Source of the DNA: Thermoanaerobaculia bacterium
GTDB taxonomy: Bacteria > Acidobacteriota > Thermoanaerobaculia > Gp7-AA8
Assembly: GCA_017883205.1 (NCBI GenBank)
Contig: JADGNZ010000001.1
Span: forward strand, 297,639-340,341
Direction: 5' to 3'
Length of the DNA stretch: 42,703 nt
A program made the position numbers and the translations under genes. The notes under the pieces were generated by a model that ran no database searches, was not told where the DNA came from, and was given only the letters and a program-made list of their open reading frames with translations. Of this stretch, positions 9,201 through 40,546 are shown piece after piece; the first letter of the stretch is position 1, and every line of letters begins with the position of its first letter.

Positions 9201-9872
9201 GATCCAATGTTTCACACCCTCGACGCTGCGTCTTTCACCCGCGATGCCGTGATTCACACTGGCGATGAGGTGCCCTGCACCCACGATGATGTCTTTTGCA
9301 GCCGCGATCCTGCGTCCTGAACCCACGATGATGTGTTTCGCACCCCCGATGAGATGTTCTGCACCCCCGATGAGATGTTCTGCACCCCCGATGAGATGTT
9401 CTGCACTCCCGATGAGATGTTCTGCACTCCCGATGAGATGTTCTGCACCCCCGATGAGATGTTCTGTACCCCCGATGAGATGTTCTGCGCTCCCGATGAG
9501 ATGTTCTGCACTCCCGATGAGATGTTCTGCACCCCCGATGAGATGTTCTGCACCCCCGATGAGATGTTCTGCATTCACGATGAGATGTTCTGCATTCACG
9601 ATGAGATGTTCTGCATTCACGATGAGATGTTCTGCACTCACGATGATGTGGCCTGCACCCACGATGATGTGGCCTGCACTCACGATGATGTGGCCTGCAC
9701 CCACGATGCTGCGGCCTGCACCCACGATGCTGCGGCCTGCACTCACGATGCTGCGGCCTGCACCCACGATGCAGCGTTCTGTGCCCACGATGCTGCGGTC
9801 TGCACCCACGATGCTGCGTTTCACACGCGCGATGCGGTGTTTCGAACCATCGATCGTGAGTCTTGAACCGTC
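9201..9872. repeat. Tandem array of 32 units of 21 bp
   Basis: This fills most of the 833-bp gap between two minus-strand genes. Every unit starts with GAT or GAC and is exactly 21 bp; GAT recurs in register from 9201 to 9852 with no insertion or deletion. Central units read GATGAGATGTTCTGCACC then three C-rich bases; later units carry GATGATGTGGCCTGCACC or GATGCTGCGGCCTGCACC. Edge units are degenerate, as expected of an ageing array. Because 21 is a multiple of three and units lack stops, long frames open on both strands (heptapeptides such as EHLIGGA or PDEMFCT). I treat these as by-products, but a repeat protein is not excluded. There are no spacers, so it is not CRISPR. Confidence 0.9.
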
Positions 9873-9884
9873 GAGCCTGATACG

Positions 9885-12800
9885 TCAGCCGGGCCGCGAT
9901 GAACTGCCGTCGCTACTTCCCCACCACCAGCACGAACGTACTCCCGCCTGCGATTTCCTTCCGGCGATACTGGATGACGTTGAAGCGCGGCGGGATCTCG
10001 GGCGGGCCGTGCCGCTGAGGAGAAAGGCAATGCGCAGGCCGCGCTCCGGAACAGCGAACGATGGTGTTTCGGCTTGCGTGACGCCGGCAGCGATGTAGAG
10101 GCGTGCCGTGTCGTAGGCTTCGAACGACCTACCCAGGACGCTGCGCGCGGCGTCGAGCTGCGCGGTGTTCGGTGGGACAACCCTCAATGCAGACCGTTCC
10201 CTAAGGGAGAACGGCGGCACCTCTTTCGGCAGGAAAAAGGCGATGGCGGAATCTGAGCCGCCAAGGAGCTCGAAGGAGAGCGTGGTCTCGTTCGTTGGCG
10301 GACCGAGGATGTTCAGGATCGCGACGGACCATGGCGGTGGGGCGGGGCTGGGTGGCTTGGGCGGAGCGTTGACGACGTGCAGGTTCTTCAAACCAGCACG
10401 CTTGTCGAGCTTCACCAGCGCATCGACGTCGAAGATCTTGTGCGCGGCGGGGATCGGGTCGTCCTGTGAGTCGACGACCAGCAGCAGACACGTGTGCGTG
10501 GCCTGACCCATTGGGGTGGCCCAGTCCCACTCCAGCACTGTTGGCAGCGTGGGCGTGACGGAGACGGTCTTGGCCGCGCCGATGGGGTGCCAGGGCGAAT
10601 TCGGCACGGCGGAGTTGCCGGGGAAGGCGGACCAGAAATCGTTTGGCAGGAGAGGAACCTTCGCCGTTGCGTCGGCGAACAGTAGTTTGACGGTCACGTT
10701 CGATGTCTTAATCCCACGGTTGTGTACCTGCGCGTAGACGCGGTTCACGTTCCCGCGCTCGGCGTCGCGGTGGAAGAGCTGCGCCTCGTAGACCACGAAG
10801 TCGACATCGCTGGGGGCATACTGAAACGACAGCGGATTGCCGACCAGTGCGTCGACTTTCATATCGACACACATCCAGTGACGCTGGGGATCGCCAAGCG
10901 CGACGAACTGCCCGACGTTCTTGAACGCGGCGGGAACACCTTCCGGCGCCAGCCCGCGGCCGGTGTCCATCATGTGATGGCGCACGTAGATGTCGACGTC
11001 AGGCATCGACGCCACGTCCACCCGCCTTTCCCAGATTCCCCGGCCGTGCGTAGCCGCGCGCAGTAGTTGCGACGGTCCGTGAAGGCGCAGGTCGTAGACC
11101 GCCGTATTCGGCAGCCCCTGGCCGAAGTTCGACCATATCCCGCCGGCGTTCGTGGTCCTGAAGACACCGATGTCGGTCCCGACGTAGTAGGTCGACGGCG
11201 CCGCCGGATCGATGACGAGCGAGTTCGCAGGCACGTCGGGGAATCCTGACGCTCCGCTGCCACTGACGTCCGTCCATGCCGCCACGCCGTTCGGCGGCAC
11301 GATCGCGCTCCAGACGTGGCCGGTGCCGTAGCCGGAGACAACAGCGATGATGTGCGTGCTGTCGTTCGGCATGACGCCGATGTCCCAGACGAACCGCAAC
11401 GGAAACGGCGCGGCATGAATCGGCTCGGCAATCCAGTCGAGGCCCCCGTTCATCGAACGGACGGCCCACACCTGGCCGTGGATCGCCGCGCAGTAGATCA
11501 ACGTCTTGCTGACGAAGTTGATCGCCGAGACCGGCCCGGTATTGCCCGGCAGGGGGATGAACGTCGGCCAGCCGCCCGTCCCCTGCGCCTTGTCGATGAA
11601 AAGGGACGAGGTGCCGAAGGCGATCCAAGTCGGATCTTCCGCACAGAGCGCATACGGCGGATAGAAGAGCGTCGCGCCGGCGATCCCTTGGAAGATGTCC
11701 GTGAAGGTTGTGTACTCGCCCGCCTGCGTCGAGCGCTGCAGCGAGATGGAGTAGTGCTCAAGGATGACGTTATGCGGGTTGTTGAAATCGACGGCCGTGA
11801 AGCCGCCGTCGCCGTCCGAGGCCGCGGGGAACACGGTGCTGTTGCGGAACTGCTGCGTGCCGTTGTCCTGTGTGCCGCCGAAGACGACCGCATCGGAAGT
11901 TGGGTGATGATCGATGAAGTCGAACTGCGTGATGGAGAGGCCGCGGTTGAGGTCATCGCTCCACGAGCCACCGCCGTCGTGCGATTCGTAAATCCCACCG
12001 TCCGTGCCGGCGTAGACGTGCAGATGGTTCGTCGGATCGAAGGCAAGGGTGTGTTGGTCGGCGTGCGTTTTCCCCAGGCTAATGTTGCTGCCGCTCCATG
12101 TGACGCCGACGGGGTCGAATGTGAACTTCATCATGTGCGGTTCGCCGCTGAGGTAGACGACGTTGGGGTCGGTGGGATCGAACGCGACGTTGCTGCAGTA
12201 GAAGGTGATCGTGCATTTCACTAACGCTACGCCCGTCTTTTTCCATGTCTGGCCGCCGTTGGTCGAGTACCAGAGGTCGTCATTGAACCCCGCCGCCATG
12301 AGCTGTGGTTGGGAAGGGGAGAACGCGATGCTCCCTCGAAACGTGTTGTTGGCTTGCAGGTCCGGAACCTGCGTGAAGGCCGGGCTGCCGGCGTTCGCAT
12401 TCGAGCTCTGATATGCGCCCTCACCGATAAAGTAGGTGAAGGCGATCGACGGATCTGTCGGATGGAGCACGATCTCCGTGCAACCGGTAGCAGTGCCGGG
12501 AACCGTCGGGGGAAGGCCGTTCGTGACGTGCGTCCACGATGTGCCGCCGCTGTCGCTGAGAAAGAGACCGTTCGACGTCGCTGCCCACACGCGGCTTGGG
12601 TTGGCCGTATGCACGGCGATGCGGAAGAACGCCGCGCCGGTGAACTCCGCCTGACCATACAGGTTCCAGCTTGTCCCGCCGTTGATGCTCTTCAGGATGC
12701 CGGCGCCGTAGTAGCTTTCCTGCGTCGAGTCAGGGACGTTGACGACGTAGAAAATGTTGCCCTCTCCCGTTCCCGCGTAGACCGTCTGGGGGAAGACCGG

Positions 12801-13253
12801 GTCGACGGCGATCGCGCCGATGGCAAGGGAAAGCTCATCATCGGACATCGGCAACCAGGTCTTGCCGGCGTTGGTGGTTTTCCAAACGCCGCCTTTGGCC
12901 GCGCCGAGGTACATCGTCCCGGCGGCGTTTGGATCGACGACGATGGCGGTGAGGCGGCCTGTCCAGAACTCGAGGTTCTTGGCGTAGGCCATCCCGTCGG
13001 TGGTGGCCATCGGTCCGAGCTGCACCCAGTTGCTGGCCCCCGGAATCGGCTTGAGCTCCGTCGGCCCCTTCCCGAAACCGCCGTGACTCTTCAACGCCGC
13101 GATGCGCCGCGGGGCGAGACGTTCCCGCTCATTGCCGACGCGAATGTCGGCACCGAGGCTGCTGATGCGGAGAGACGGCTTGTCGATCGGTGAACGGATT
13201 GGGGAAGTATGCTCGAAAAATGAGAAGACTGCGATGTGGCATGGCACAGACAC
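9885..13253 (-). CDS. Large BNR/sortilin-type beta-propeller protein, frameshifted near the 3' end
   Basis: An approximately 1,100-residue protein built from BNR/Asp-box type repeats, e.g. VWKTTNAGKTWLPMSDDE, ILKSINGGTSWNLYGQ, LWYSTNGGQTWKKTG and VFRTTNAGGIWSNFG. These are typical of secreted sialidase-like and VPS10-like propellers. No enzyme site is identifiable. The start is uncertain: GTG at 13253 or 13247 is possible, but both lie in a palindrome; no signal peptide is seen in frame. Near 10001-10008 the coding pattern changes frame. The reading frame given ends at 9885 with an Arg/Ser-rich tail, whereas the -1 frame gives a plausible ending (PEIPPRFNVIQYRRKEIAGG, then STFVLVVGK) and stops at 9913. 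A one-base loss in a C/G run would explain this. Confidence 0.75.
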   Translation of the reverse strand: MSVPCHIAVFSFFEHTSPIRSPIDKPSLRISSLGADIRVGNERERLAPRRIAALKSHGGFGKGPTELKPIPGASNWVQLGPMATTDGMAYAKNLEFWTGRLTAIVVDPNAAGTMYLGAAKGGVWKTTNAGKTWLPMSDDELSLAIGAIAVDPVFPQTVYAGTGEGNIFYVVNVPDSTQESYYGAGILKSINGGTSWNLYGQAEFTGAAFFRIAVHTANPSRVWAATSNGLFLSDSGGTSWTHVTNGLPPTVPGTATGCTEIVLHPTDPSIAFTYFIGEGAYQSSNANAGSPAFTQVPDLQANNTFRGSIAFSPSQPQLMAAGFNDDLWYSTNGGQTWKKTGVALVKCTITFYCSNVAFDPTDPNVVYLSGEPHMMKFTFDPVGVTWSGSNISLGKTHADQHTLAFDPTNHLHVYAGTDGGIYESHDGGGSWSDDLNRGLSITQFDFIDHHPTSDAVVFGGTQDNGTQQFRNSTVFPAASDGDGGFTAVDFNNPHNVILEHYSISLQRSTQAGEYTTFTDIFQGIAGATLFYPPYALCAEDPTWIAFGTSSLFIDKAQGTGGWPTFIPLPGNTGPVSAINFVSKTLIYCAAIHGQVWAVRSMNGGLDWIAEPIHAAPFPLRFVWDIGVMPNDSTHIIAVVSGYGTGHVWSAIVPPNGVAAWTDVSGSGASGFPDVPANSLVIDPAAPSTYYVGTDIGVFRTTNAGGIWSNFGQGLPNTAVYDLRLHGPSQLLRAATHGRGIWERRVDVASMPDVDIYVRHHMMDTGRGLAPEGVPAAFKNVGQFVALGDPQRHWMCVDMKVDALVGNPLSFQYAPSDVDFVVYEAQLFHRDAERGNVNRVYAQVHNRGIKTSNVTVKLLFADATAKVPLLPNDFWSAFPGNSAVPNSPWHPIGAAKTVSVTPTLPTVLEWDWATPMGQATHTCLLLVVDSQDDPIPAAHKIFDVDALVKLDKRAGLKNLHVVNAPPKPPSPAPPPWSVAILNILGPPTNETTLSFELLGGSDSAIAFFLPKEVPPFSLRERSALRVVPPNTAQLDAARSVLGRSFEAYDTARLYIAAGVTQAETPSFAVPERGLRIAFLLSGTARPRSRRASTSSSIAGRKSQAGVRSCWWWGSSDGSSSRPG

Positions 13254-13265
13254 TCTTGTCTGTGC
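13244..13265. repeat. Perfect 9-bp inverted repeat, second copy of dispersed element
   Basis: Arms GCACAGACA (13244-13252) and TGTCTGTGC (13257-13265) flank a 4-base loop. The preceding 17 bases (13235-13251) are identical to 4941-4957 downstream of lon. It sits between the divergent propeller and deacetylase genes, so it cannot be a terminator for either, which argues for a dispersed repeat element. Confidence 0.75.
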
Positions 13266-13304
13266 TCCGAGGCGGCGTTCAATCAGAATGTGCGTGATCC
13301 TCCG

Positions 13305-14240
13305 ATGATCTCCATCTACACCAACCCCATCTTCCACAAACACGATACCGGCGTCGGGCATCCGGAGACGGCGACGCGGCTCGATGCGGCGCTGGCTGGC
13401 GTTGTGCGGGCAGGGCTGGCCGGACGGATTACACGCGAGACGGCGGAGCATCGCGATACCAATCGCCTCATCGCAAAGGTGCATTCGACGGATTACCAAC
13501 GGTCGATCGATGAAGCTTCTCAGTCGGGCATGCGACTCTTCCATTCGATCGACAACCCGATGTCGTCGCAGACGTTTGCTGCCGCGCGCACAGCGGTCGG
13601 CACCGCGCTCACCGCTGCGGAAGAGATGATGCAGAGCGAAGCGGGACGTGCATTCGTCATTGCCCGGCCGCCCGGACATCACGCCGAGCGGCTGAAAGCG
13701 ATGGGCTTCTGTTTCTTCAACACGATCGCCTGCGTTGCCGAATGGATTCGCGAGCAGCCCGGCATCGATCGAGTCTTCATCTTCGATTTCGACGTCCATC
13801 ACGGCAACGGAACGCAGTCGCTGTTCTGGGACCGCGACGACGTCTTTTACCTCTCGATGCACCGCTTTCCGTTCTATCCGGGAACGGGCGCAGCGAGCGA
13901 AATCGGCTCCGGAGCCGGCCGGGGCACCACGATGAACATCCCGCTAGAACGCGGCCTCGGCGACGCCGCATACCTGCGTGGAGTCGAAGACGTCGTCGTC
14001 CGCGCTATCGATGCCTATCAGCCTCAGGCAATCCTGCTGTCGTCAGGTTTCGATGCGCACCGCCGCGATCCGCTTGGTGGCATGCGCGTGACGGAGCGGG
14101 CGTACGGCGAGATCACGACGCGCATCGTCGAAGCCGCAGCGCGCCACAGCGGCGGGCGCGTGCTCTCGCTGCTCGAAGGCGGTTACGACATGGAAGGGCT
14201 CGCGGCGAGCGTCGCCGAGCATGTGAACGCTCTCGCGTAA
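13305..14240 (+). CDS. Class II histone deacetylase / acetoin utilisation-type deacetylase
   Basis: A 311-residue zinc hydrolase of the arginase/deacetylase fold (HDAC family), which removes acyl groups from lysine or polyamines. All key elements are visible: the catalytic His pair in ARPPGHHAE, zinc ligands in FDFDVHHGNG (Asp163, His165) and SSGFDAH (Asp250), and the transition-state Tyr294 in EGGYD. It begins with the family-typical ISIYTNPIF-HKHDTG-GHPE. The ATG at 13305 is chosen because upstream frames run through the hairpin at 13244. No strong ribosome site is seen. The natural substrate in bacteria is usually unknown and cannot be inferred here. It converges on a glycosyltransferase gene. 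Confidence 0.94.
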   Translation: MISIYTNPIFHKHDTGVGHPETATRLDAALAGVVRAGLAGRITRETAEHRDTNRLIAKVHSTDYQRSIDEASQSGMRLFHSIDNPMSSQTFAAARTAVGTALTAAEEMMQSEAGRAFVIARPPGHHAERLKAMGFCFFNTIACVAEWIREQPGIDRVFIFDFDVHHGNGTQSLFWDRDDVFYLSMHRFPFYPGTGAASEIGSGAGRGTTMNIPLERGLGDAAYLRGVEDVVVRAIDAYQPQAILLSSGFDAHRRDPLGGMRVTERAYGEITTRIVEAAARHSGGRVLSLLEGGYDMEGLAASVAEHVNALA

Positions 14241-14254
14241 AACCGGGGGAGAAC

Positions 14255-14324
14255 CGTTTCACGCGGAGACGCGGAGGGCGCGGAGTTGGTTTTCCCCGTG
14301 TCCTCCGCGGCTCCGCGTGAAACG
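14255..14324. repeat. Long inverted repeat between convergent genes (probable bidirectional terminator)
   Basis: Arms 14255-14268 and 14311-14324 (CGTTTCACGCGGAG and complement) pair perfectly over 14 bp. After a 2x2 mismatch another 7 bp pair (14271-14277 with 14302-14308), leaving a 24-base loop. It fills the 87-bp gap between the deacetylase and glycosyltransferase stops. The 'TTTCACGCGGAGACGCGGAG' style is that of dispersed repeats in many environmental genomes. Confidence 0.8.
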
Positions 14325-14327
14325 TTT

Positions 14328-15440
14328 TCAGTAGTCTTTCGCGCGAAGTACCGACTCATACAACGCTTCCAACCTCGTAATCCGCAACTCTTTCGAGAAG
14401 CCGCGTACGACGTGCTCACGTGCGTTTTTCGCGACACGCTCGCGCCGCGCCGCATCGTCGATCACCTCGGCGATCGCGCGCGCCAGCGGCGGCACTTCCT
14501 TCGCGGGAATCAGCCAACCGACTTCGGCTGATGAGACGAGCTCGCGGTTGCCGCCGCAATCGGTGGCGATGACCGGTTTTCGCATGGCCATGGCCTCGCG
14601 GATCGTGCCGGTGATGCCTGTGCCGTCCCACGAAGCGTCGACGACGAGATCGCAGGATGCGAAGACGTTCGGCATGTCGTCGCGGTACTCGACGGGCGTG
14701 ACGTGCGGCCCGATGCCGCGCTCACGTGCGTAGCTCGCCACCTCCGCCCGCTCCGACCCGTCGCGGCAGCCGATCAGCACCAGGTGGGCGTGTGGGTGGG
14801 TGGGAAGGATCGAAGCGACGGCGTCGATCAACTCCTTCCAACCTTTCCAGGGTCGTACGCCGATCTGAGCGATGAGGAAGGCGCCGTCCGCGATTCCCTT
14901 TTCGCGGCGGAAGGCGGTCGTATCCCAGCGTGCCGGATCGAAGAGATGAACATCGGTTCCGGCATAAACGACGACGACCTTCTCTCGCGGCAGAAGGCCG
15001 CTGGCAACGATTACCTCCTGGATCTGCGCGCAGACGGTGACGACGCGATCAACACGATGCGTCCGGTATTTGATGCGGTTCCAGACGTCGAGAGGAAAGG
15101 AGACGCCGCGGTTCACGATGAATGCGCCCACCGGCCGGGCGAACGTAGCGGCCAGCGCGAGCGCGTGCGCGACGCCCTTATGCACGTGGACGACGTCGGG
15201 CCGGAGCTCGCGAAAAAGCTGCCCCAACTTCCACGCGCTGACGAGATCGAACTGGTTGCGCATGCGCAGTCCAGCGAATCCCACCCCAGCCTGATACGCC
15301 TTTTCTTCGAGCACGGCATCGGGGCGGCTGATGATCGTTACGTCGTGACCGCGCTCGCGCAAACCGGATGCTGCCTGAAACATCTGGTGCACGGAGCCGG
15401 TGTTGAATTGATTGAATTCGAGGATTTGGAAGATGCGCAT
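14328..15440 (-). CDS. Glycosyltransferase family 4 (GT-B fold)
   Basis: A 370-residue retaining glycosyltransferase of the GT4 type with both Rossmann halves. The N-terminal half opens with MRIFQILEFNQFNTGS and includes ELRPDVVHVHKG. The C-terminal donor-binding half includes IGVRPWKGWKELIDA and the E-x7-E type region IREAMAMRKPVIATDCGGN. It would transfer a sugar from a nucleotide donor to a lipid- or glycan-bound acceptor on the cytoplasmic side. I chose the ATG at 15440, since the 15 codons upstream do not look like family sequence; TACAAT lies 17 bases before it and may be a -10. It stands alone, divergent from the DUF1844 operon. Donor and acceptor are unknown. Confidence 0.9.
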   Translation of the reverse strand: MRIFQILEFNQFNTGSVHQMFQAASGLRERGHDVTIISRPDAVLEEKAYQAGVGFAGLRMRNQFDLVSAWKLGQLFRELRPDVVHVHKGVAHALALAATFARPVGAFIVNRGVSFPLDVWNRIKYRTHRVDRVVTVCAQIQEVIVASGLLPREKVVVVYAGTDVHLFDPARWDTTAFRREKGIADGAFLIAQIGVRPWKGWKELIDAVASILPTHPHAHLVLIGCRDGSERAEVASYARERGIGPHVTPVEYRDDMPNVFASCDLVVDASWDGTGITGTIREAMAMRKPVIATDCGGNRELVSSAEVGWLIPAKEVPPLARAIAEVIDDAARRERVAKNAREHVVRGFSKELRITRLEALYESVLRAKDY

Positions 15441-24937: not shown

Positions 24938-25117
24938 TGTGGGGAGTAGGGGGTGGGGTGTGGGAGTGCGGTTTTCGGGGGTCGGGAGTCGCAGAAACTC
25001 CGAATCCGAGGTCTCGCTTCGCTCCGAACCAGCTCTGTTGCCCCACTCCTCGTCACCCGATCCGACGTCGTGCCCTACGTCTCTCTCCCACCCCCCACTC
25101 CCTACACCCCACACCCC
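24938..25117. repeat. GTGGGG/CCCCAC inverted-repeat element within the ABC operon
   Basis: G-rich arm (24938-24969, e.g. GGGGAGTAGGGGGTGGGG) and a C-rich arm (25087-25117, e.g. CCCACTCCCTACACCCCACA) are imperfect complements around a core of about 117 bp. The C-rich arm ends at the GGAGG ribosome site of the next gene, so the element forms the whole gap between permease and LolA-like genes. Confidence 0.7.
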
Positions 25118-25126
25118 GGAGGCAAC

Positions 25127-25840
25127 ATGAAACGAACCCTGCTCATCCTTCTTCTCGCCGCTGCGCCGTTGCGCGCGGCCGGTAACGACGCGGCTTCCGT
25201 GCTCGCGCGCGCTGACGTCTTTCGCAATCCGATTCCGAGCTTCTCGGTCGATGTTGAGCTCATGTCGGTCACGCCGGACGGCAAGTCCAACACTTCGCGC
25301 TTTCGCGTCTACGGCAAAGGTGCGGACCGCAGCATCGTCGAGTTCACCTACCCGCAGACCGAGAAAGGGAAGTACCTGCTGATGCTGCGCGACGCGATGT
25401 GGATCTACATTCCGACGGCGAGCCGGCCGATCCGCATCTCGCCGCTGCAACGGCTGATGGGCCAAGCCTCGAACGGCGACGTTGCGCGGACGAACTTTGC
25501 GGCCGACTACGACGCGAAGTCGGTGGCCGAAGAGGGCGACACGTACGTTCTCGACCTCGTGGCCAGAGATCCGGCAGTCGCCTACAACCGCGTCAAGCTC
25601 TGGATCGACAAACAGAGCTACGAGCCGCGCCGCGCCGATTTCTACGTCGTCTCTGGCAAGCTGATCAAGCGGGCGAACTACCGCACGTACGGGACGATGG
25701 CCGGCCGCCGCGTGGTCACCGAGGTCGAGATCGAGGACCTCCTCCGCCCCGGCAACCGCACGACGATGCGCTACGCCAACCTCACACCCAAAGAGAACGC
25801 CGAAAAGATGTTCACAAAGGACTCGCTCGGCAAATGGTAA
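25127..25840 (+). CDS. LolA-like outer-membrane lipoprotein-sorting protein
   Basis: A 237-residue exported protein: signal peptide MKRTLLILLLAAAPLRAAG and a LolA/LolB-like domain of PF17131 type, with SFSVDVELMSV, EKGKYLLMLRDAMWIYIP, SRPIRISPLQRLMGQASNGD and EVEIEDLLRPGNRTTMR. LolA-like folds carry lipids or lipoproteins through the periplasm. GGAGG at 25118-25122 sets the ATG at 25127; longer frames upstream run through a repeat. Next to an FtsX-type transporter, the product is likely its periplasmic or outer-membrane partner. Confidence 0.9.
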   Translation: MKRTLLILLLAAAPLRAAGNDAASVLARADVFRNPIPSFSVDVELMSVTPDGKSNTSRFRVYGKGADRSIVEFTYPQTEKGKYLLMLRDAMWIYIPTASRPIRISPLQRLMGQASNGDVARTNFAADYDAKSVAEEGDTYVLDLVARDPAVAYNRVKLWIDKQSYEPRRADFYVVSGKLIKRANYRTYGTMAGRRVVTEVEIEDLLRPGNRTTMRYANLTPKENAEKMFTKDSLGKW

Positions 25841-28893: not shown

Positions 28894-28929
28894 AAGGGGC
28901 GCCGCGTTCTCATTCACGCGGCACCCCTT
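28894..28929. terminator. Bidirectional hairpin between convergent genes
   Basis: AAGGGGCGCCGCGT (28894-28907) pairs with 28916-28929 at 13 of 14 positions; the one mismatch would be a G-U pair in the minus-strand transcript. The loop is 8 bases. It sits between the response regulator stop (28859) and the minus-strand gene stop (28942). Confidence 0.75.
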
Positions 28930-28941
28930 CATCACGCGCGA

Positions 28942-29658
28942 CTACTTCTTCGGATCCTTTGCGATTTCGTGAACGAGATCGAGGATCTTATCGTCGGCCG
29001 GATCGGTTTGCGCCTTCGCCGCAGCCTTGGTAGCAAGAGAGGGGGCCAGAAAGCCCTGTGTGGGAGGAGTGGTGGGAGGAGTCGTTGAGGGTGGTGTGGT
29101 AGGAGGGTTGTTGGCGGGTTTTTGCGGCTTGCGGCGGTTCATCGTCCGATCGACGACACTCTGTAACTCATCGACATAAATCCGCGCCCCGCCGCCGTCA
29201 GGCTGCTTCACGTGACGCTTGCCCCATTGAAACAACTGAAGGGCATGTTCGCCGGAGATGGACAGCTTCTGATCCATCGAATACGACATGGCCATCGTGA
29301 TCGCCGCCATCCTCTGCGTGATCGGGTGCATCTGGCGCTCGTAGTCGAGGGCGTACTGCGCGGCGGCGGTGTCGAACATGTTGCGCTGCTGAAACGGTGG
29401 ATAGGAGTTGACGGCGTTGATCATGGGCGGGATGAGCGCGCGTCCGAACTTCGCGCTCTGGGCGATGCGTGTGATCTTCGTGATATCCGGCTGGATCAGA
29501 TCGGGGATGATGGCCTCCATTTCGTTGAGCAACTCGACCATCCTGGCCGCTGCCGCGACAGGGTCCGGGATGGCCGCGATGGCCTTTGGTTTGGTCCTGG
29601 TGCGCTTCTGAACGACGGTTTTGGAAGAGCGGTTTCCGGTGCGGTTTCTCGTTGGCAT
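28942..29658 (-). CDS. Protein of unknown function with Thr/Pro-rich linker
   Basis: A 238-residue protein I do not recognise. A basic N-terminus (MPTRNRTGNRSSKTVVQKR) leads to a mostly helical domain at about 30-165 (AARMVELLNEMEAIIPDLIQ, KFGRALIPPMINAV, MAAITMAMSYSMDQKLS). Then come a Thr/Pro repeat linker (about 183-200, TTPPSTTPPTTPP) and a short charged helix at the C-terminus. No signal peptide or catalytic motif is seen. AAGGAG six bases before the ATG is one of the best ribosome sites in the window, so it is certainly translated. The second 21-bp array begins 116 bp upstream of its start. Confidence 0.75.
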   Translation of the reverse strand: MPTRNRTGNRSSKTVVQKRTRTKPKAIAAIPDPVAAAARMVELLNEMEAIIPDLIQPDITKITRIAQSAKFGRALIPPMINAVNSYPPFQQRNMFDTAAAQYALDYERQMHPITQRMAAITMAMSYSMDQKLSISGEHALQLFQWGKRHVKQPDGGGARIYVDELQSVVDRTMNRRKPQKPANNPPTTPPSTTPPTTPPTQGFLAPSLATKAAAKAQTDPADDKILDLVHEIAKDPKK

Positions 29659-29773
29659 CTCGATCTCCTTTGCCGCGCAGTCGAGGTCCAGCCTCCTGCG
29701 GGCTCATCTTCTGAGACGTTTCACAAAAAAAAAGGTTACTGGGAGTGAATGCGATCGGTTTCGGCGGGGTCTT

Positions 29774-30107
29774 GATCTCTGCCCGGCAGGTCGCGATCTA
29801 CCCTGATCGACACGCGATCTATGCCTGGTAGCTACGGATCTATCTTCGGGAGATCGCGATCTATTTTTTTGAGATGCGGATCTATCCCTGGTAGATCGCG
29901 ATCTCTTTTTAGGAGATGCGGATCTGTTTTTAGGAGATGCGGATCTCTTTTTTTAGATGTGGATCTCTTTTTGGGAGATGCGGATCTGTTTTTAGGAGAT
30001 GCGGATCTCTTTTCAGGAGATGCGGATCTCTTTTTGGGAGATGCGGATCTCTTTTTGGGAGATGCCTATCTCTTTTCTTAGATGCCGATCTATCCTCAAG
30101 GGCGACG
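29774..30107. repeat. Tandem array of 16 units of 21 bp with self-complementary core
   Basis: GATCT recurs every 21 bp (one unit is 20 bp) from 29774 to 30087. The typical unit is GATCTCTTTTTGGGAGATGC plus one base. Joined units create GAGATGCGGATCTC, a 5-bp stem with 4-base loop; older units at the left edge carry the perfect 12-bp palindrome AGATCGCGATCT. The right and left edges are degenerate. Together with 30108-30386 it fills the gap between the unknown gene at 29658 and the propeller gene at 30387. Frames through the array (DADLFLG repeats) are by-products. Confidence 0.88.
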
Positions 30108-30175
30108 TCTGATCTCGGTAAGTGCATGCTGGATCAATGGCTTACGTCCAAGCACCGTCAGTTCTCCTGAGAGTG

Positions 30176-32627: not shown

Positions 32628-32632
32628 CACAC

Positions 32633-33874: not shown

Positions 33875-35407
33875 CTACTTCGGAATCGGAATACTCCCCA
33901 GCAAGTACTTCAAATCATCGTCGCGCCACCGAATGCCTCCTCCGAATGTGAAGGCGGTGTGGTTGAGGACATTGTCGACTCCGCTGCGGATGAAGATCGT
34001 TGGAGTGGTCGGCTTCTCCTGGCGGAAGGTGTATTCGCCGAAGAGGCGGACGTGGGGGTTGTTGTCGCCGTTGCGGTGGCCGAAATCGAAGACTTCGCCG
34101 GTGGCGCGGATGCGGTTGTTGAAGAAGTAGTCGACGCCAGCGCCGCCTGAGGAGTCGATCATGCCGAGGCGGACGGCGAAGGGGGCGATCGTCCAGCCGG
34201 CTTGGGCGGAGACGAGGAACGAGCGGTCGAAACGGGTCTGTTGCGTGATCGTCGTCTGCGATTGGCCGGTTGCCGGATTCGTCACGGTCTGTTCGATCGT
34301 ATTGTCGCGGCGCTTGCCGAACGGCGTGTCAGCGAGCTCGATGTTGTAGAAGCGATTGTGCTCGGGATTCGGGTTCAGGCGCAGCCAGACGGCGGAGCGG
34401 GAGTTGCCCAGCTTGCCGTTGCCGTCCTGTTGCGCGGGCAGACCGGCGTAATAGTCGCCATTGAGCCCGAGGTCGAGCTGCATTCTGCTGGCGCGGCCGA
34501 GCGTGTTGCGCAACTCGTTCACGCCGCTCTCGACCGAGCCGAGGGCCGCGGTGAGGCGGTCGTGCGCTTCGTTGCTGTAGAGAAGCTTGCCGACGGTTCC
34601 TTCACCGCTGCGGATCTGGGTGGTCACGGCGTTGAGATTGTCGGATGTGGTCTTGAGATCGGCGGAAAGGGTGCGGAGGTTTTCGACGATGTGGCGGACG
34701 TCTTCGCGATTCTCGCCGACCGTGCCGTTCATCTGCGTGGCCATCCGGTCGATTGAAGCGGCCAGACGTGGGATCTCGACGCGCAGCGATTCGCTGATGA
34801 CGCGCGCGTTCGCAACCGTGGCGTCGACGTTGGTCCGGTTCGCAGCGATCAGGTCGCGCACCTGCTCGGTGATGGTGCGGACATTGTCGACGATGTCGAC
34901 GAGACGCTGCTGCCCGGCGGGTCCGCTCATTGCGCCGCGCAGCGAGGCCGTGATCGCCTTGACGTCGTTCGCGATCGCGGCGACCTGATTGGTGATGTCG
35001 TCCATCGAAGCCGGCTGCGTTCCGTGAAGGACGACGCTCTGTTCTTGCGGTATTACAGGTGCATTGGACGGGCCGGGATCGAGCTCGACGTACTTCTCGC
35101 CGAGGAGCCCGAGGTTGGCGACGTGCGCGACGGCGCCGGGATGAAGCACCACGTCGGGATCGATATCCAGCGTCACCTCGGCTTTGCCATCCGAACGGAG
35201 CTTGATATTCGACACTTTTCCGACGCGAACGCCGGCCACGCGGACGGCCGATTTGTTATCGAGACCGGCGACGGAGTCGAAGAGCGCCGTCACTTTGCGT
35301 GCGCCGGTCCCGTGACCGATCTGCACGTCTTCGATCTTCAGGATGAAGTACCCGAGGATCGCCAGGACGATGAGCATGAAAACGCCGACTTTGGCTGCGG
35401 ATGACAT
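33875..35407 (-). CDS. MCE/MlaD-domain protein with coiled coil and barrel-like C-terminus
   Basis: A 510-residue envelope protein. An N-terminal anchor helix (GVFMLIVLAILGYFILKI) is followed by an MCE domain at about 35-115 (VTALFDSVAGLDNKSAVRVA, HVANLGLLGEKYVELDPG). A long amphipathic coiled coil follows (about 130-300). The last 190 residues look like beta-barrel strands (WLRLNPNPEHNRFYNIELA, VSAQAGWTIAPFAVRLG, HTAFTFGGGIRWRDDDLKYL). MCE proteins form tunnels that carry phospholipid between membranes, normally with MlaE/MlaF partners. None is adjacent. The barrel-like tail would let one chain span the periplasm; this is inference. Confidence 0.85.
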   Translation of the reverse strand: MSSAAKVGVFMLIVLAILGYFILKIEDVQIGHGTGARKVTALFDSVAGLDNKSAVRVAGVRVGKVSNIKLRSDGKAEVTLDIDPDVVLHPGAVAHVANLGLLGEKYVELDPGPSNAPVIPQEQSVVLHGTQPASMDDITNQVAAIANDVKAITASLRGAMSGPAGQQRLVDIVDNVRTITEQVRDLIAANRTNVDATVANARVISESLRVEIPRLAASIDRMATQMNGTVGENREDVRHIVENLRTLSADLKTTSDNLNAVTTQIRSGEGTVGKLLYSNEAHDRLTAALGSVESGVNELRNTLGRASRMQLDLGLNGDYYAGLPAQQDGNGKLGNSRSAVWLRLNPNPEHNRFYNIELADTPFGKRRDNTIEQTVTNPATGQSQTTITQQTRFDRSFLVSAQAGWTIAPFAVRLGMIDSSGGAGVDYFFNNRIRATGEVFDFGHRNGDNNPHVRLFGEYTFRQEKPTTPTIFIRSGVDNVLNHTAFTFGGGIRWRDDDLKYLLGSIPIPK

Positions 35408-35408
35408 G

Positions 35409-35650
35409 GTGTGTGGGGGGTGGGGAGTGGGGGGTGGGGTGTGGAAGAACTGTTCCCGCTTCCAAGCCTCACTTCATACGTCCCGTTCCTTTCTTAGGCA
35501 TCAGTTGTATCTGGGGGTCGCGCGTCGGGTGTCGGGTGTCGGAGCAAGTCCTGGCGAAACGCTTGGCTTGTCGCTCCCACACCCCACACCCTACTCCCGA
35601 CTCCCCGCGAAAACACCCCACACCCTACTCCCCACTCCCCCGAAAAACAT
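35409..35650. repeat. GTGGGG/CCCCAC inverted-repeat element between maf and the MCE gene
   Basis: G-rich arm 35409-35446 (TGTGGGGGGTGGGGAGTGG) and C-rich arm 35574-35640 (two tandem ACCCCACACCCTACTCCC blocks) are imperfect complements with a core of about 127 bp. Related GACTCCCGA strings continue into the 3' end of maf to about 35682. Confidence 0.7.
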
Positions 35651-36253
35651 CTACGACTCCCGACTCCCGACCCCCGACAACCGCAGGACATCGATCCCTG
35701 CCCGCCGCAGCATCTCGAACAGCAAAGCAAGTGGTAATCCAACTACGTTCGTGTAACTGCCGTGGATGGAGTCGATGAACATCCCGCCAATGCCTTGTAC
35801 GGCGTAAGCGCCCGCTTTGTCGAGCGGCTCGCCGGTGGCCACGTACCAGGCGATCTCGCGTTCGTCGAGCGGGAGCATACGCACTTCCGACTCGGCCACG
35901 CGCGTCTCACGCCAGTCCCGAGCGGTGTTCTGCAGCGTGACGCCGCTGTAGACGACGTGCGTTTTGCCGGCGATCAAACCGAGCATCCGCCTGGCGTCAT
36001 TTGCGTCGACCGGCTTTTCGAGTAGTTGGTCGCCGAGGAGGACGGTCGTGTCGGCGGCGATGATCCAGGCGTCGGGATGGCTGGCCGCGACCACCTCGGC
36101 CTTATCGCGCGAGAGCCGCGCCACATACTCCTCGGGTGATTCGCCGGGCTGATGAATCTCCGGCACATCGCTCGGAATGACGTCGAAGGCCAGGCCGATC
36201 GACGTCAGCAACTCGCGGCGGCGCGGCGATTGCGAAGCGAGGATGAAACTCAT
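35651..36253 (-). CDS. maf: Maf-family nucleoside triphosphate pyrophosphatase
   Basis: A 200-residue house-cleaning enzyme that hydrolyses dTTP/UTP or modified nucleotides to monophosphates. Family marks: LASQSPRRRELL at the start, SPEEYVARLSRDKAE, the catalytic Asp in IIAADTTVLLGDQLLEKP, TRVAESEVRMLPL and YVATGEPLDKAGAYAVQG. The full set fits the YhdE-like dTTP/UTP subgroup. The start overlaps the RelE-like toxin stop by four bases (ATGA at 36250-36253). The final residues (RLSGVGSRES) are encoded by a dispersed repeat string rather than family sequence, so the C-terminus has been rewritten without loss of the core. Confidence 0.94.
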   Translation of the reverse strand: MSFILASQSPRRRELLTSIGLAFDVIPSDVPEIHQPGESPEEYVARLSRDKAEVVAASHPDAWIIAADTTVLLGDQLLEKPVDANDARRMLGLIAGKTHVVYSGVTLQNTARDWRETRVAESEVRMLPLDEREIAWYVATGEPLDKAGAYAVQGIGGMFIDSIHGSYTNVVGLPLALLFEMLRRAGIDVLRLSGVGSRES

Positions 36254-36501
36254 CGCGCCAGTACCAGGCTGATGCTCAGAACGACGATGAATCGCGCTTC
36301 AGTGACGATGCGATAGATGATGCGGATCCCCTCGCTGCGGTAGCTCCAGTAACCGCGCAACGGCTCGAAGAGCGGCGCTCCGATGATGGGATCTTCGTCG
36401 ATGGTCTCGAGCGCGCGGGCGGTGACCGCGCGCTGCTCGTCGGTGAGCGCGCGCCAGTCTTTTTCAACGCGCTCGGCAAAACGGAGACGGTCATTCCACA
36501 T
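36250..36501 (-). CDS. RelE/ParE-type toxin
   Basis: An 83-residue toxin of the RelE/ParE fold: RFAERVEKDWRALTDEQRAV, FEPLRGYWSYRSEGIRIIYR and IVVLSISLVLAR are the expected helix pair and beta-sheet. RelE members cut mRNA on the ribosome; ParE members inhibit gyrase; the sequence alone does not decide. Its antitoxin is probably the Phd-like protein at 36649-36909, but a 147-bp gap holding an inverted repeat now separates them. Its stop overlaps the maf start. Confidence 0.88.
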   Translation of the reverse strand: MWNDRLRFAERVEKDWRALTDEQRAVTARALETIDEDPIIGAPLFEPLRGYWSYRSEGIRIIYRIVTEARFIVVLSISLVLAR

Positions 36502-36542
36502 GAGCGAAGTCTACTCGCGAAGGATTGGAAGGTCGCCACCGA

Positions 36543-36648
36543 GCCGGTGGCGGTACAGCCGCCGGGCCGGCGGCGCTACGCTTGTCTCGCGCGCCATTGT
36601 GTAGCGCCGCCGGCTCGGCGGCTGGATCGCCGGCGGCCCGCCGGCGGT
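36543..36648. repeat. GCCGCCGGC inverted-repeat element between antitoxin and toxin
   Basis: Two arms in opposite orientation (36543-36578 and 36600-36636) flank a short core (CTTGTCTCGCGCGCCATTGT). The left arm is identical over 31 bases to the complement of 25900-25930. The element ends at the antitoxin stop codon (36649-36651). Confidence 0.82.
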
Positions 36649-36909
36649 TTATCCGCCAAGCAGATCCTCCGCAGCCAGCATGGCGCCGCGCAGCACCTCG
36701 GTCTCTCCCTCTTCGATGGCAGCGCGCAGCGGCGCGTCGTCGGCGATGTCGATCGTCTCGCGGAGAGCGAGGTATTCATCGTGCGAGATGAGGATGGCGA
36801 TGGGACGGTCGTTGCGAAGGAACGTGGTGCGGTTGCCGGTCAGTTCGCATTCGCCGACCAGGGCGCGAAGGTCTTCCGATACGTCGTGGATATCGAATCG
36901 CTTGTCCAT
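36649..36909 (-). CDS. Phd/YefM-type antitoxin
   Basis: An 86-residue antitoxin of the prevent-host-death class: DIHDVSEDLRALVGECELTG, then NRTTFLRNDRPIAILISHDE and YLALRETID are the DNA-binding half. The acidic C-terminus (IADDAPLRAAIEEGETE) would wrap the toxin. It should bind and neutralise the RelE-like product and repress its own transcription. Its ATG overlaps the galU stop by one base (TAATG), so translation is coupled to galU. The final residues (AAEDLLGG) and stop abut the GCCGCCGGC repeat. Confidence 0.88.
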   Translation of the reverse strand: MDKRFDIHDVSEDLRALVGECELTGNRTTFLRNDRPIAILISHDEYLALRETIDIADDAPLRAAIEEGETEVLRGAMLAAEDLLGG

Positions 36910-37799
36910 TAGTTCTGACGATTTTTCGGAACGTCATTTCCGAACAGCGACTGCAGATACGTGCGGAACTCGCTGCCGACGGCCGGATGGCGCAGCGCGT
37001 AATCGACGGTCGCTTTGAGATAGCCCAGCTTCTCGCCGGCGTCGTAGCGCTTGCCTTCGAAGACGTAGCCATAGAAATCGCCGGTGCGCACCAGCTCCCG
37101 CAGCGCGTCCGTGAGCTGGATCTCGCCGCCGGCGCCGCGCTCGGTCTTCTCCAGCAGCGGGAAGACGTCCGGCGGCAGGATGTAGCGCCCGATGATCGCG
37201 TAGTGCGACGGCGGATTCACTTTCGGCTTCTCCACCATGTCGGTGATGTGAAAGCGGCGGTTGCCGAGCATGTTGCCGGCGACGATGCCGTAGCGTGTGG
37301 TCTCCGCCGCCGACACTTCCATCAGCGCGATGACCGGACGGCCTGTCTCCTCGAAGACGCGCCGCATCTGCAGGAGACACGGCTCGTTGGCCAGGATGAC
37401 GTCGTCGGGCAGGACGACTGCGAACGGCTCGTTGCCGACGGCATCCTTCGCCTGCAACACTGCGTGGCCGAGTCCGAGTGCTTCCTTCTGCCGGACCGAG
37501 ATGAGATCGGCCATCGTGCTGACCGTCTCGACCTCGCTGAGGAGATCGTTCTTCTTCCGCTCCTGCAGCGACCGCTCCAGCTCCGCCGTACGATCGAAAT
37601 GATCGAGGATGGCGTCTTTCCCCTTCGACATGACGACGATCAGCTTGTCGAGTCCCGATCCGAGCGCCTCCTCGATTCCATACTGCAGAATCGGCTTGTC
37701 GACGAGCGGCAACATCTCCTTCGGAATGACTTTCGTCGCCGGAAAGAAGCGGGTGCCGAATCCGGCGCAAGGGAAGACGCAAGTGCGAAGGGCGGTCAT
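36909..37799 (-). CDS. galU: UTP-glucose-1-phosphate uridylyltransferase
   Basis: A 296-residue cytosolic enzyme that makes UDP-glucose from UTP and glucose-1-phosphate, feeding envelope polysaccharide and glycolipid synthesis. The nucleotide-binding signature is intact: FPCAGFGTRFFPATKVIPKE, then KPILQYGIEEALGSG. Further marks are QKEALGLGHAVLQAKD, VVLPDDVIL, ITDMVEKPK and the sugar-binding GEIQLTDALREL. The ATG at 37799 is chosen; longer frames run through a G-rich repeat. It heads a tightly linked minus-strand chain: galU, Phd antitoxin, RelE toxin, maf. Confidence 0.95.
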   Translation of the reverse strand: MTALRTCVFPCAGFGTRFFPATKVIPKEMLPLVDKPILQYGIEEALGSGLDKLIVVMSKGKDAILDHFDRTAELERSLQERKKNDLLSEVETVSTMADLISVRQKEALGLGHAVLQAKDAVGNEPFAVVLPDDVILANEPCLLQMRRVFEETGRPVIALMEVSAAETTRYGIVAGNMLGNRRFHITDMVEKPKVNPPSHYAIIGRYILPPDVFPLLEKTERGAGGEIQLTDALRELVRTGDFYGYVFEGKRYDAGEKLGYLKATVDYALRHPAVGSEFRTYLQSLFGNDVPKNRQN

Positions 37800-37820
37800 G
37801 ATTTGCGAGGATAGCAGTGA

Positions 37821-37945
37821 CGGGGGGTGGGGAGTTGGGGGTGGGGAGTGGGAGCGAGGCAGAACGTCGGAGCGCTTCGGACATCGGCGCGAGCAGGACG
37901 CAGCGAACCCCTTCTCCCACACCCCACGCCCTACTCCCCACCCCC
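37821..37945. repeat. GTGGGG/CCCCAC inverted-repeat element upstream of galU
   Basis: G-rich arm 37821-37854 (GGGTGGGGAGTTGGGGGTGG) and C-rich arm 37914-37945 (ACCCCACGCCCTACTCCCCA) are imperfect complements around a 59-bp core rich in CG. It fills the gap between the divergent galU and propeller genes, so any promoters must overlap it. Confidence 0.7.
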
Positions 37946-37985
37946 AAGGCAGCAATATTGCTTTGTGGTAAAACTCTGACCGGGC

Positions 37986-39905
37986 ATGCGCAGACTCCTC
38001 ATCACTCTCACGATTCTCATCATTGCGCTACCTCTTTGCGCACAGTGGCGGCGGGCCAATCTTTACGGCGCCGACGTTCGTGCGCTGATCATCGACCCTT
38101 CCAATCCCGACACGCTCTACCTCGGCACGAGCGGCGGCGAGGTCTATGTTTCGACGGACGCCGCGAAGACGTGGCAGAACCCGCGCCGCGGAATCCCGTT
38201 TCCGGGCTACGTCGTCGACAACCTCGTGCTCGATCGCAGCGGCCGTCTCTGGGCGGCGTGCTGGGGTGCGTGGGGAGGCGGCGTCATCGCGGTCTCCGAG
38301 GATGGCGGGCAGAACTGGACGCGGCGCGATGCCGGCCTCGAGGACTTTTCGGTCCGCGCGATCGCGATCGATCCACACGACGCCGATTTCATCGTCGTCG
38401 GCGGCCTGACTGGCGTTTATCGATCGACCGACGGCGGCGCGTCGTGGGAGCAGATCTCGAAACAGATCAATGTCGAGTCGCTCGCTCTCGATCCTCGGAC
38501 GCACGACCGCATCTACGTCGGTACCTGGAGACAGGGAACGCGCACGGACGACGGCGGCAAGACGTGGAAGCTGATCAACAACGGGATGGTGCTCGACACC
38601 GACATGTTCTCGATCACCATCGACCGCTATAACCCCGACAAGGTGTGGGTCTCCACGTGCGGCTGGGTCTACAACACGCCGAACCGCGGCGACAACTGGA
38701 CGCGTTATCGCGACGGTTTCGACAACCGGCGCATTCACGACATCGCGCTCGATCCGTGCGACCGCGACTCGATTTACGCCGGCTCGGTGGCCGGCCTCTA
38801 TCGCAGCCACGACGGCGGCAAGAGCTGGTACGTGATCTCGGATGAGTCGCTGGTCGTGAATACGATCGCTCTCCATCCGCAGCGCCCGGGCCGCGTCATC
38901 CTCGGCGTCGAAGGTGACGGCGTCTATCTCTCCAACGACAACGCGAAGACGTTCACGCGCATGTGCGATGGCCTTCGCAATCTGACCATCACCTCGGTCG
39001 CTTCCGACGCCTCGCATCCGAAGAACGTTTTTGCCGCAGTTGCGTTCGGCGGCGCGTCGAGCGGCATCTATCGCTCGGCCGATGCCGGTGCAAGCTGGGC
39101 GAAGCTGGCGTCAATCGATCTGCCGCCCGTGCTCTCGCTCGTGGTCACGGACGACGCTGAAGCGAAATTCGTTGCCGGAACGGAAAAAGGATTCTTCTGG
39201 AGCAGCAACGGCGAACGGTGGACGCAGGCGCAACCGGCAAACACTCCCATTCGCGTCGACAAGGTTCTGCGATTCAACAAGGCACGCTTCTTCGCTGCGA
39301 CTTCCGAGGGGGTCTTCACGAGCCGTGATTCGGGGAAGAGCTGGTACCTCCTTGCAGGCGCCGACAATCGCGCCGTCGACATGGCCATCGGCAACCTCGG
39401 CGACAAGCGCGCGCTCTTCGCCCTGACCAGCGTCGGCGTGCTCGCGTTCGACGGGACGCAATGGACCTCGATCGAAGGCGCGCCGCCGAAGGGCCGCACG
39501 CTGGCCGTACGCGGCACGGGCGACGACCAGCTCGTCTTCGTGGCCGGATCGCAGGGCGTGAAGGCAGGACGTGTCGGTGCGGACCGGAAATGGGTCGAGG
39601 CAGAGGCCCCGGACGCGCAGTTTGCTTCGGTTTTCGGAAGCTCGCGCAGCGCCGACAACTTCGTCTTCCTCACCTCGCGCCAGCAGCACGAGATGCTCGT
39701 CGCCGAGCCGAAGACGGACGAGTGGCGCTCCTACCCACTGCCCTCGCGCACTGCTGAGGTGTCGTCGGTCGCGCTCGACCCATTCGATGGCGAGCGTCTC
39801 TACGTCGGCACCCAGGGCGAAGGGATCTTCATCTTCGAAGGGAAGTCAGCCAAGTACGAAGCGAAGAAGGCGACGGAAGCGGCGGCGGCGATGGGGACGA
39901 ATTAG
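37986..39905 (+). CDS. Secreted BNR/sortilin-type beta-propeller protein
   Basis: A 639-residue exported protein: signal peptide MRRLLITLTILIIALPLCAQ, then two consecutive sets of Asp-box blades such as VYVSTDAAKTWQNPRRG, IAVSEDGGQNWTRRDAG, VYRSTDGGASWEQIS, LYRSHDGGKSWYVISD, IYRSADAGASWAKLAS and VFTSRDSGKSWYLLAG. The Asp boxes are strictly kept (SxDxGxxW), as in VPS10/sortilin and sialidase propellers. Catalytic sialidase arginines are not evident, so binding is the likelier role. The C-terminus ends in an Ala/Lys/Glu-rich tail. The third tandem array starts about 120 bp after its stop. Confidence 0.88.
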   Translation: MRRLLITLTILIIALPLCAQWRRANLYGADVRALIIDPSNPDTLYLGTSGGEVYVSTDAAKTWQNPRRGIPFPGYVVDNLVLDRSGRLWAACWGAWGGGVIAVSEDGGQNWTRRDAGLEDFSVRAIAIDPHDADFIVVGGLTGVYRSTDGGASWEQISKQINVESLALDPRTHDRIYVGTWRQGTRTDDGGKTWKLINNGMVLDTDMFSITIDRYNPDKVWVSTCGWVYNTPNRGDNWTRYRDGFDNRRIHDIALDPCDRDSIYAGSVAGLYRSHDGGKSWYVISDESLVVNTIALHPQRPGRVILGVEGDGVYLSNDNAKTFTRMCDGLRNLTITSVASDASHPKNVFAAVAFGGASSGIYRSADAGASWAKLASIDLPPVLSLVVTDDAEAKFVAGTEKGFFWSSNGERWTQAQPANTPIRVDKVLRFNKARFFAATSEGVFTSRDSGKSWYLLAGADNRAVDMAIGNLGDKRALFALTSVGVLAFDGTQWTSIEGAPPKGRTLAVRGTGDDQLVFVAGSQGVKAGRVGADRKWVEAEAPDAQFASVFGSSRSADNFVFLTSRQQHEMLVAEPKTDEWRSYPLPSRTAEVSSVALDPFDGERLYVGTQGEGIFIFEGKSAKYEAKKATEAAAAMGTN

Positions 39906-40023
39906 GTCGCGGGGTTGCTAAGGCTCCGCTGATTCGGGTCGCATGAAACGATTAACTTAACTGACTGAGCCAGCGAAGGATGCGCTCGTGTCGTCTCCGT
40001 CGATCACGTCTGGTGCGGCAGGG

Positions 40024-40546
40024 CGCTTTCGCAGGACTCGGGGGGCTTTCGCTAATGACTCAAGGTCATTCGTCAATGACTCGGGGGTCATTCGTTAATG
40101 ACTTAGGGGTCATTCGCTAATGACTCGGAGGTCATTCGCAAAAGACTCGGGGGTCTTTCGCAAAGGACTCAGAGTCATTCGTTAAAGACTCGGGGGTCTT
40201 TCGTTAAAGACTCGAGGGTCTTTCGTTAAAGGCTCGGGGGTCTTTCGTTAAAGACTCGGGAGTCTTTCGTTAAAGACTCGAGGGTCTTTCGTTAAAGACT
40301 CGAGGGTCTTTCGCAAAGTACTCGGGGGTCTTTCGTTAAAGACTCGGGGGTCTTTCGCAAAGTACTCGGGGGTCTTTCGTTAAAGACTCGGGGGTCTTTC
40401 GCAAAGTACCCGGGGGTCTTTCGTTAAAGACTCGGGGGTCTTTCGCAAAGGACTCGAGGGTCTTTCGTTAAAGACTCGGGGTCCTTCGCAAAGGACGCAG
40501 GGGGCTTTCGTTAAAAGACTCGGGAGTCTTTCGCAAGAGACTCCTC
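40024..40546. repeat. Tandem array of about 24-25 units of 22 bp, each a small hairpin
   Basis: TTCG recurs every 22 bp (a few units are 21). The main unit is AAAGACTCGGGGGTCTTT plus CGTT, in which AAAGAC pairs with GTCTTT over a 6-base loop. Units 3-6 instead have AATGAC with GTCATT, so both arms changed together. Some units have CGCAAAGTAC and are less paired. The array occupies most of the 798-bp gap between two plus-strand genes; the flanks (39906-40023 and 40547-40703) hold nothing else I recognise. Confidence 0.9.

Follow-up and report, generated by a model that had tools for sequence, protein, structure and literature searches.

Intergenic tandem arrays of 21-bp units, constant in length and varying in sequence, some of which lie 5' of a multi-copy gene family in Thermoanaerobaculia

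Several described bacterial systems combine short repeats with a characteristic genomic setting. BrickBuilt of Porphyromonas gingivalis is a minisatellite within a miniature inverted-repeat transposable element (MITE), described with ~19 copies of one unit family and with terminal inverted repeats like those of the insertion sequence (IS) IS5 (PMC4596501). Iteron-Rep origins are described with 2-7 iterons and a sequence-specific, winged-helix Rep, the cooperativity of binding being tied to helical phase (PMC4980987). In type III toxin-antitoxin systems, the repeats are 34-36 nt long in the quoted examples, and a terminator lies between the array and the toxin gene (PMC5086642). REPtrons pair repetitive extragenic palindromes (REP) with TnpA-REP (PMC8266576). 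Here, we compare with these systems a class of intergenic arrays of 21-22-bp units and the gene family linked to it. The starting point was a stretch of 42,703 nt (the window) at the end of contig JADGNZ010000001.1 (C1, positions 297,639 to 340,341 of the forward strand) in the Thermoanaerobaculia bacterium assembly GCA_017883205.1 (G000; 6.37 Mb, 105 contigs). It contains three such arrays, referred to below as arrays 1, 2 and 3.

Array 2 is gene-linked, and arrays 1 and 3 are orphans, that is, arrays with no family gene within 1.5 kb. The firm result of the wider survey is that an array lies 5' of the family gene, forming a two-part unit of constant geometry and varying sequence in two genera, along with many orphan arrays of the same class. 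Out of 157 profile matches in all, we examined 70 family open reading frames (ORFs) with their surroundings: 32 in G000, 26 in G002, 7 in G009, 4 in G001 and 1 in G016. Of the 62 with sufficient upstream sequence, 49 had an array no more than 1 kb away in the 5' direction; on the 3' side, the count was 0 out of 58. A 1.02-Mb sample of G000 was made up of the whole of C1 and portions of six further contigs (C5, C16, C32, C57, C82 and C91); these six were chosen from the list of matches to array 3 for their known minimum lengths, and the sample is therefore not fully blind to arrays. In it, 8 of the 10 called family genes had an array within 1 kb 5', the corresponding count for the other genes being 42 of 870 (Fisher P=2.6e-9). 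On the 3' side, arrays were found at none of these 10 family genes versus 68 of the 870 others. The linkage also holds in the second genus, where all 7 examined genes of G009 had an array within 1.5 kb. The converse relationship is weaker, as 11 of the 51 arrays in the sample have a family gene within 1.5 kb. At L187, L217 and L224 (G000 C2:38-42 kb, G002 C179 and G001 C61), two or three family genes follow one another behind a single array.

The family profile matched 64 proteins in G000, 54 in G002, 28 in G009, 9 in G001 and 2 in G016, that is, in 5 out of 18 genomes of the taxonomic family, with no match in the other 13. In a sample of the phylum, in which at most 7 candidates were scored per genome, the family was found in 3 out of 396 genomes (G000, G002 and G009). 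A single-protein query additionally gave weak matches in four genomes outside the two genera at E 0.001-0.009, one of which, G026, has no profile match. We also counted arrays in stretches taken by place, using criteria slightly unlike those that gave the 51 sampled arrays and excluding the synteny-chosen stretches G002:C44 and G001:C22 (L050). There were 52 in 1.02 Mb of G000, 5 in 72 kb of G002 and one short AG-rich row in 120 kb of G009, and none in G001 (100 kb), G016 (100 kb) or a total of 337 kb from ten genomes that lack the gene. The excluded stretches contained one short row (G002:C44, 58 kb) and none (G001:C22). Per-genome counts, thus, indicate that gene number and orphan arrays rise together at the high end; G009 is an exception, with 28 matches and arrays mainly beside genes.

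The three window arrays are part of one genome-wide class that lies between genes and in which a unit length of 21 bp is held. Counting arrays whose base period is 19-23 bp or its double, we retrieved 51 from the G000 sample, totalling 16.4 kb (1.6% of the sample), with a best lag of 21 bp in 40 of them. Heptamers aside, other periods with at least 4 copies (8, 11, 12, 15 and 18 bp) were represented by one array each. The neighbouring genes were in tandem for 22 arrays, convergent for 14 and divergent for 9, and 6 arrays lay at a contig end; for comparison, all gaps of at least 100 bp comprised 213 tandem, 60 convergent and 92 divergent. No called gene spans an array, the gene calls having excluded ORFs with at least 30% array overlap. 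Contig ends fall inside arrays of the 21-bp type at the ends of C5, C32 and C57 and the starts of C16, C20 and C91 of G000; therefore, the assembly probably undercounts arrays. Growth of 21-mers from 7-mers was considered and rejected, as 37 units showed no 7-bp self-similarity (0.224 vs 0.241 expected). A search for other array-linked genes returned one further cluster near at least 3 arrays, response-regulator-like (15 genes, 3 arrays), which was not retained, and Y1 transposases were discarded as array partners, their gene counts being unrelated to arrays.

The gene-linked arrays (n=54, median length 306 bp) had a best lag of 21 in 46 cases, 22 in 4, 20 in 1 and 12-13 in 3. Their longest stem was significant (P≤0.05) in 29 out of 54, with a combined P of 5e-20, and the full dyad was so in 15. 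In the G000 sample, the whole-unit dyad score was weak (8 out of 51 at P≤0.05) and the contiguous-stem score clearer (13 out of 51, combined P=4e-6). Among the 48 sampled arrays with a 19-23-bp consensus, P≤0.05 was reached by 5 of 11 linked arrays versus 5 of 37 orphans (Mann-Whitney P=0.048). Covariation in the sample was weak, with a mean z of 0.98 on the best axis, a value biased by the choice of that axis, vs -0.03 on other axes. RNA hairpins were rejected: the linked arrays showed no consistent mispair bias on the sense strand (G.T 168 vs A.C 188 in 43 arrays; 37 of 808 changed pairs were compensated), and the sample arrays, judged by eye, no consistent G.T vs A.C bias.

The sequence of the unit can change fully between sister copies with similar flanks, while its length and place persist. 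Unit and protein similarity were correlated among close paralogs only (Mantel rho 0.14; 0 out of 1000 permutations as high). The family loci L201 and L202 carry unlike arrays between flanks with identities of 89% on one side and 85% on the other. At L216 and L218 (91% protein identity), the units match at 13 out of 21 positions, a level that unrelated pairs also reach (up to 14-15), and the arrays align in phase. G002 lacks the four arrays for which an orthologous gap was located (its gaps measure 218, 186, 172 and about 0 bp), and in G001 the array is absent in all three resolved cases of the four; when compared for target duplication, the four orthologous gaps proved too diverged for exact end placement. 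Unit families recur at distant places. That of C1:184293, an array absent at the orthologous G002 gap, occurs at more than 10 other places in G002, and that of array 3 at 9 further places of its own genome (E≤1e-13). A 222-bp part of array 1 is 79% identical to a gene-linked array at C16:65675, and the orphans C1:216157, C82:137909, C32:61267 and G002 L131, among others, have the array and some 20-160 bp of flank in common with linked arrays. A 31-aa fragment of a family gene lies 44 bp from the orphan C91:115137 (tblastn).

At least one subfamily of the array and gene unit recurs as a block whose copies share their ends. Comparison of copies delimits the window copy to ~1.26 kb (28896..30156, minus strand). 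It contains array 2 (29774..30107, minus strand), whose 21-bp units are palindromic (GAGAT..ATCTC, stem P 0.03), and, on its 3' side, the family gene of 238 aa (28942..29658, minus strand), without a Pfam match and predicted to have an all-helical core at residues 33-174 and disordered ends. An inverted repeat starting 14 bp past the stop codon (28896..28927, minus strand) is the 3' end common to all five copies. Four copies have a clear 5' end (GGTTAGCGGCAA); in the window copy it is worn (30118..30156, minus strand) and matches GGTTAGCGGCAA..CTTAC of the four others. These are located at C1:74368-75559 (87%), C32:862-2022 (84%), C57:25469-26295 with 25076-25326 (85% and 76%) and C1:27318-28003, the last missing most of the gene and keeping both ends. 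Inspected by eye, the ends of the five copies showed no target duplication and no terminal inverted repeat.

Searches of Pfam, NCBIfam, PHROGs, PADLOC and PDB sequences gave no convincing match to the linked family. Weak profile matches of single members (best E 0.031 in Pfam, 0.014 in PHROGs, 0.0085 in NCBIfam and 0.0031 in PADLOC) were dismissed as chance, none occurring in more than 2 of 27 members. Two AlphaFold2 models predict an all-helical core, for which Foldseek returned nothing at E≤0.001 in PDB or BFVD; VIA-align, with 4 chains covered, gave one row at Z 5.3 over 57 residues. On these predicted structures, the fold searches would indicate neither a new nor a known fold. Some C-terminal tails (RGRPK, as read from the alignment) have a look that we take to be AT-hook-like, and they are candidates only. 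The family genes are under purifying selection, with ratios of nonsynonymous to synonymous substitution rates (dN/dS) of 0.13-0.70 in 16 pairs. Full-text searches of the PMC library returned no description of these arrays or of the gene family.

We tentatively lean towards the arrays being helically phased DNA platforms for the protein encoded alongside, a role suggested by sequence features. Two-turn units, often two-fold symmetric, would set dimers on one face of the DNA, and cooperative binding across 10-20 sites would control the gene and bridge or compact DNA. The orphans would then serve as additional docking sites or represent non-autonomous copies. Given that sister genes can have unrelated units, spacing and symmetry would have to be the main basis of recognition, or else specificity changes very fast. 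A bolder form, which we regard as doubtful, is a bacterial counterpart of satellite DNA: each member of a large family of helical proteins, encoded beside its own fast-changing array, would recognise that array by its geometry, namely the 21-bp spacing and the two-fold symmetry, rather than by its bases. Array sequence would then turn over freely with unit length and position kept, and the arrays would act as regulatory or chromosome-organising platforms, spreading as orphans. Several observations weigh against the platform reading. No array lies within 1 kb 5' of 13 of the 62 family genes, and most arrays in the sample (40 of 51) are orphans. In G001, with 9 profile matches, two of the four genes examined have an array, and a 100-kb stretch contained none. 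No significant stem was found in 25 of the 54 linked arrays, and no DNA-binding domain was recognised in the family protein. Close paralogs can have unrelated units, which argues against sequence-specific binding: L201 and L202, 81% identical as proteins, match at 9 out of 21 unit positions, and L243 and L246, at 84% identity, at 10 out of 21. A multi-copy family without a recognised relative, joined to arrays of constant length and varying sequence, raises the question of whether bacteria select helical spacing and symmetry over sequence. Array and gene units account for part of the repeat DNA in these soil bacteria. The orphan arrays by themselves would be simply another form of minisatellite-bearing element.

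The main and serious rival, quite possible in itself, is a selfish minisatellite mobile element, with a gene of its own or a hitch-hiking one, that spreads like an IS or a MITE. The linked protein, or a factor acting in trans, would mobilise it; the array would have no binding role and would expand, contract and be replaced through slippage or unequal exchange. The absence of arrays at orthologous gaps in G002 and G001, the recurrence in G002 of the unit family of one array absent there and the copy that has lost most of the gene and keeps both ends all favour this rival, and the 23-nt minisatellite of BrickBuilt within its MITE provides a described precedent (PMC4596501). As in the account of that element, the arrays are intergenic, dispersed and made of tandem units, and their presence or absence varies; dispersed copies with an internal tandem repeat, a feature of minisatellite-MITEs, are found here. 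In contrast to it, the unit families here are numerous, a gene family is linked on one side, and no terminal inverted repeat was seen by eye in five copies of one subfamily. The same five copies lack a visible target duplication, and selfish spread leaves unexplained the constant 5' placement of the array, the steady period of 21 and the symmetric linked units. We neither place the unit in the minisatellite-MITE kind nor set it apart from it. Alternatively, and improbably in our view, local sequence beside these genes might be amplified during copying or repair in steps of 21 bp, the machine setting the period and the seed the sequence. Units unrelated between most paralogs would be expected from it, as would the unlike arrays within the similar flanks of L201 and L202, the first L201 units resembling the flank; this seed resemblance, however, was judged by eye in one pair. 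Such a process does not predict symmetric units, and the occurrence of unit families at distant places implies that arrays are copied too.

Very unlikely is a module akin to type III toxin-antitoxin systems, in which transcription of the array would yield a repeat RNA that keeps the product of the downstream gene in check. The resemblance lies in a tandem array directly 5' of a gene (here within 1 kb in the 49 of 62 cases above) and in a unit length more conserved than its sequence, as described for those systems (PMC5086642). The repeat here is 21 bp, and terminator-like hairpins between array and gene are not in excess (18 out of 56 on the sense strand, 18 out of 56 on the antisense strand and 9 out of 56 after shuffling). 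The G.T and A.C counts lack the mispair bias of RNA, and repeats differ between close paralogs here, whereas that source reports conserved repeats for close toxins (PMC5086642). The Pfam matches of 27 members include no toxin profile and, at E≤1, no ToxN/AbiQ-type endoribonuclease, and the predicted core is all-helical. Iteron-Rep origins as described share direct repeats (17-22 bp there; a lag of 20-22 in 51 out of 54 linked arrays here) near a protein gene, and differ from the present units, which have about 10-20 repeats, are chromosomal and multi-copy and change between close paralogs (PMC4980987). No Rep match for the family was found in NCBIfam or among the Pfam matches of the 27 members. 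With REPtrons, the arrays have in common many dispersed palindromes and a linked gene (PMC8266576), but the linked family has no Y1/HUH profile match, and Y1 matches (15 in G000, 8 in G001, 9 in G002, 1 in G009, 14 in G010, 7 in G012, 3 in G013 and 0 in G016) do not parallel the family counts. The gene and array unit, therefore, lacks at least one tested defining feature of each of the type III toxin-antitoxin, iteron-Rep and REPtron systems.

The original prediction, made from the window alone, had instead tied the arrays to secreted beta-propeller genes, each array occupying an equivalent position 3' of a propeller, between two co-directional genes and at a fixed distance from the next start, as a new class possibly acting in 3' processing, packaging or control. 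The arrays themselves were borne out: Tandem Repeats Finder (TRF) and direct reading both recover three arrays of 21-22 bp with units unlike in sequence, and the spacing of 116-159 bp to the next ORF (starts at 9052 (-), 29658 (-) and 40704 (+)) is correct. A distinct intergenic class with units of about two DNA turns and varying sequence also stands, with a lag of 21 in 40 out of 51 sampled and 46 out of 54 linked arrays. Its tie to propellers does not. We checked the 3' side of 16 propeller genes, namely 14 G000 ORFs with a PF15902 match and two more from the window (the fourth-propeller ORF and the Vgb-like gene). An array within 1.5 kb was found in 4: the three of this window, at 67, 130 and 311 bp, and one at 954 bp (C1:220152). 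The other 12, one of them checked over 734 bp only, have none, and a lack of arrays downstream of most propellers is what the prediction had named as speaking against it. The fourth propeller ORF (minus strand, from 1822 leftwards, ending at C1:297262) is among those without an array, the nearest one ahead of the window being C1:287416-287744. Arrays occur in every neighbour-gene orientation, co-directional neighbours being found for 22 of the 45 arrays with both neighbours called, and among these 22 the distance to the next start ranges from 27 to 1356 bp. Hence, despite the three window propellers with an array 67-311 bp 3', a model of propeller-gene arrays is extremely improbable. The genome-wide extent of the class and the membership of the gene next to array 2 in a large array-linked family go beyond that prediction.

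Within the window, TRF placed the arrays at 9263-9843 (21 bp), 29835-30094 (21 bp) and 40035-40533 (22 bp), with scores of 498, 284-346 and 598, all other rows scoring 40-122; degenerate units read directly extend them to about 9201-9872, 29774-30107 and 40024-40546. Array 1 (9201..9872, no strand assigned) is an orphan of 21-bp units without dyad symmetry (longest stem 3, P 0.93). Array 3 (40024..40546, no strand assigned) is an orphan of 22-bp units (stem P 0.015) with arms such as AAAGAC/GTCTTT (perfect 10 times) and AATGAC/GTCATT (perfect 3 times), imperfect in 8 further cases. A tblastn search of the window detected no family gene or remnant beside either. Array 1 faces the 5' side of a lysylphosphatidylglycerol (LPG)-synthase-like gene (7961-9052), array 2 that of the 238-aa family gene and array 3 that of a gene joining AI-2E transporter and B12-binding-like domains (40704-42575); the genes with their 3' side toward arrays 1-3 encode BNR or Vgb-like propellers. 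Relatives of the AI-2E/B12-binding-like gene with more than 70% identity occur in 15 other genomes of the taxonomic family. DNA similarity between the window and G002:C44 ends between 28860 and 40704, which puts arrays 2 and 3 at or inside a non-syntenic stretch, and similarity to G001 begins at 40688. Rfam gave 0 matches at gathering score in the window.

Other repeats were observed alongside the class. Array C1:230151-230760 of G000 flips orientation midway, from GCTTCGACATT units to AATGTCGAAGC units; the gene end beside it is unlike its G002 counterpart, and G002 has no array there. Array C1:226903-227247 lies between purine-rich and pyrimidine-rich flanks resembling the arms of heptamer hairpins, and in the matching gap G001 and G002 have a (GAATGTT)n hairpin. 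Heptamer arrays number 44 in the 1.02 Mb of G000 and occur in relatives as inverted pairs, e.g. (TGGATTT)5 with (AAATCCA)5 (L085:10451-10530, L032:1384-1486 and L038:1417-1492), which would fold as long intergenic hairpins. G002 has dozens of relatives, on both strands, of an element of ~200 bp with inverted arms of ~65 bp (L058:11913-12118, G000 C82:111913-112118), which resembles a REP doublet forming a hairpin (REPIN) or a MITE. Finally, a 59-bp CACAGAG/CTCTGTG palindromic repeat (L010:13905-13964, G000 C1:193905-193964) is present in dozens of copies in G001 and G002.

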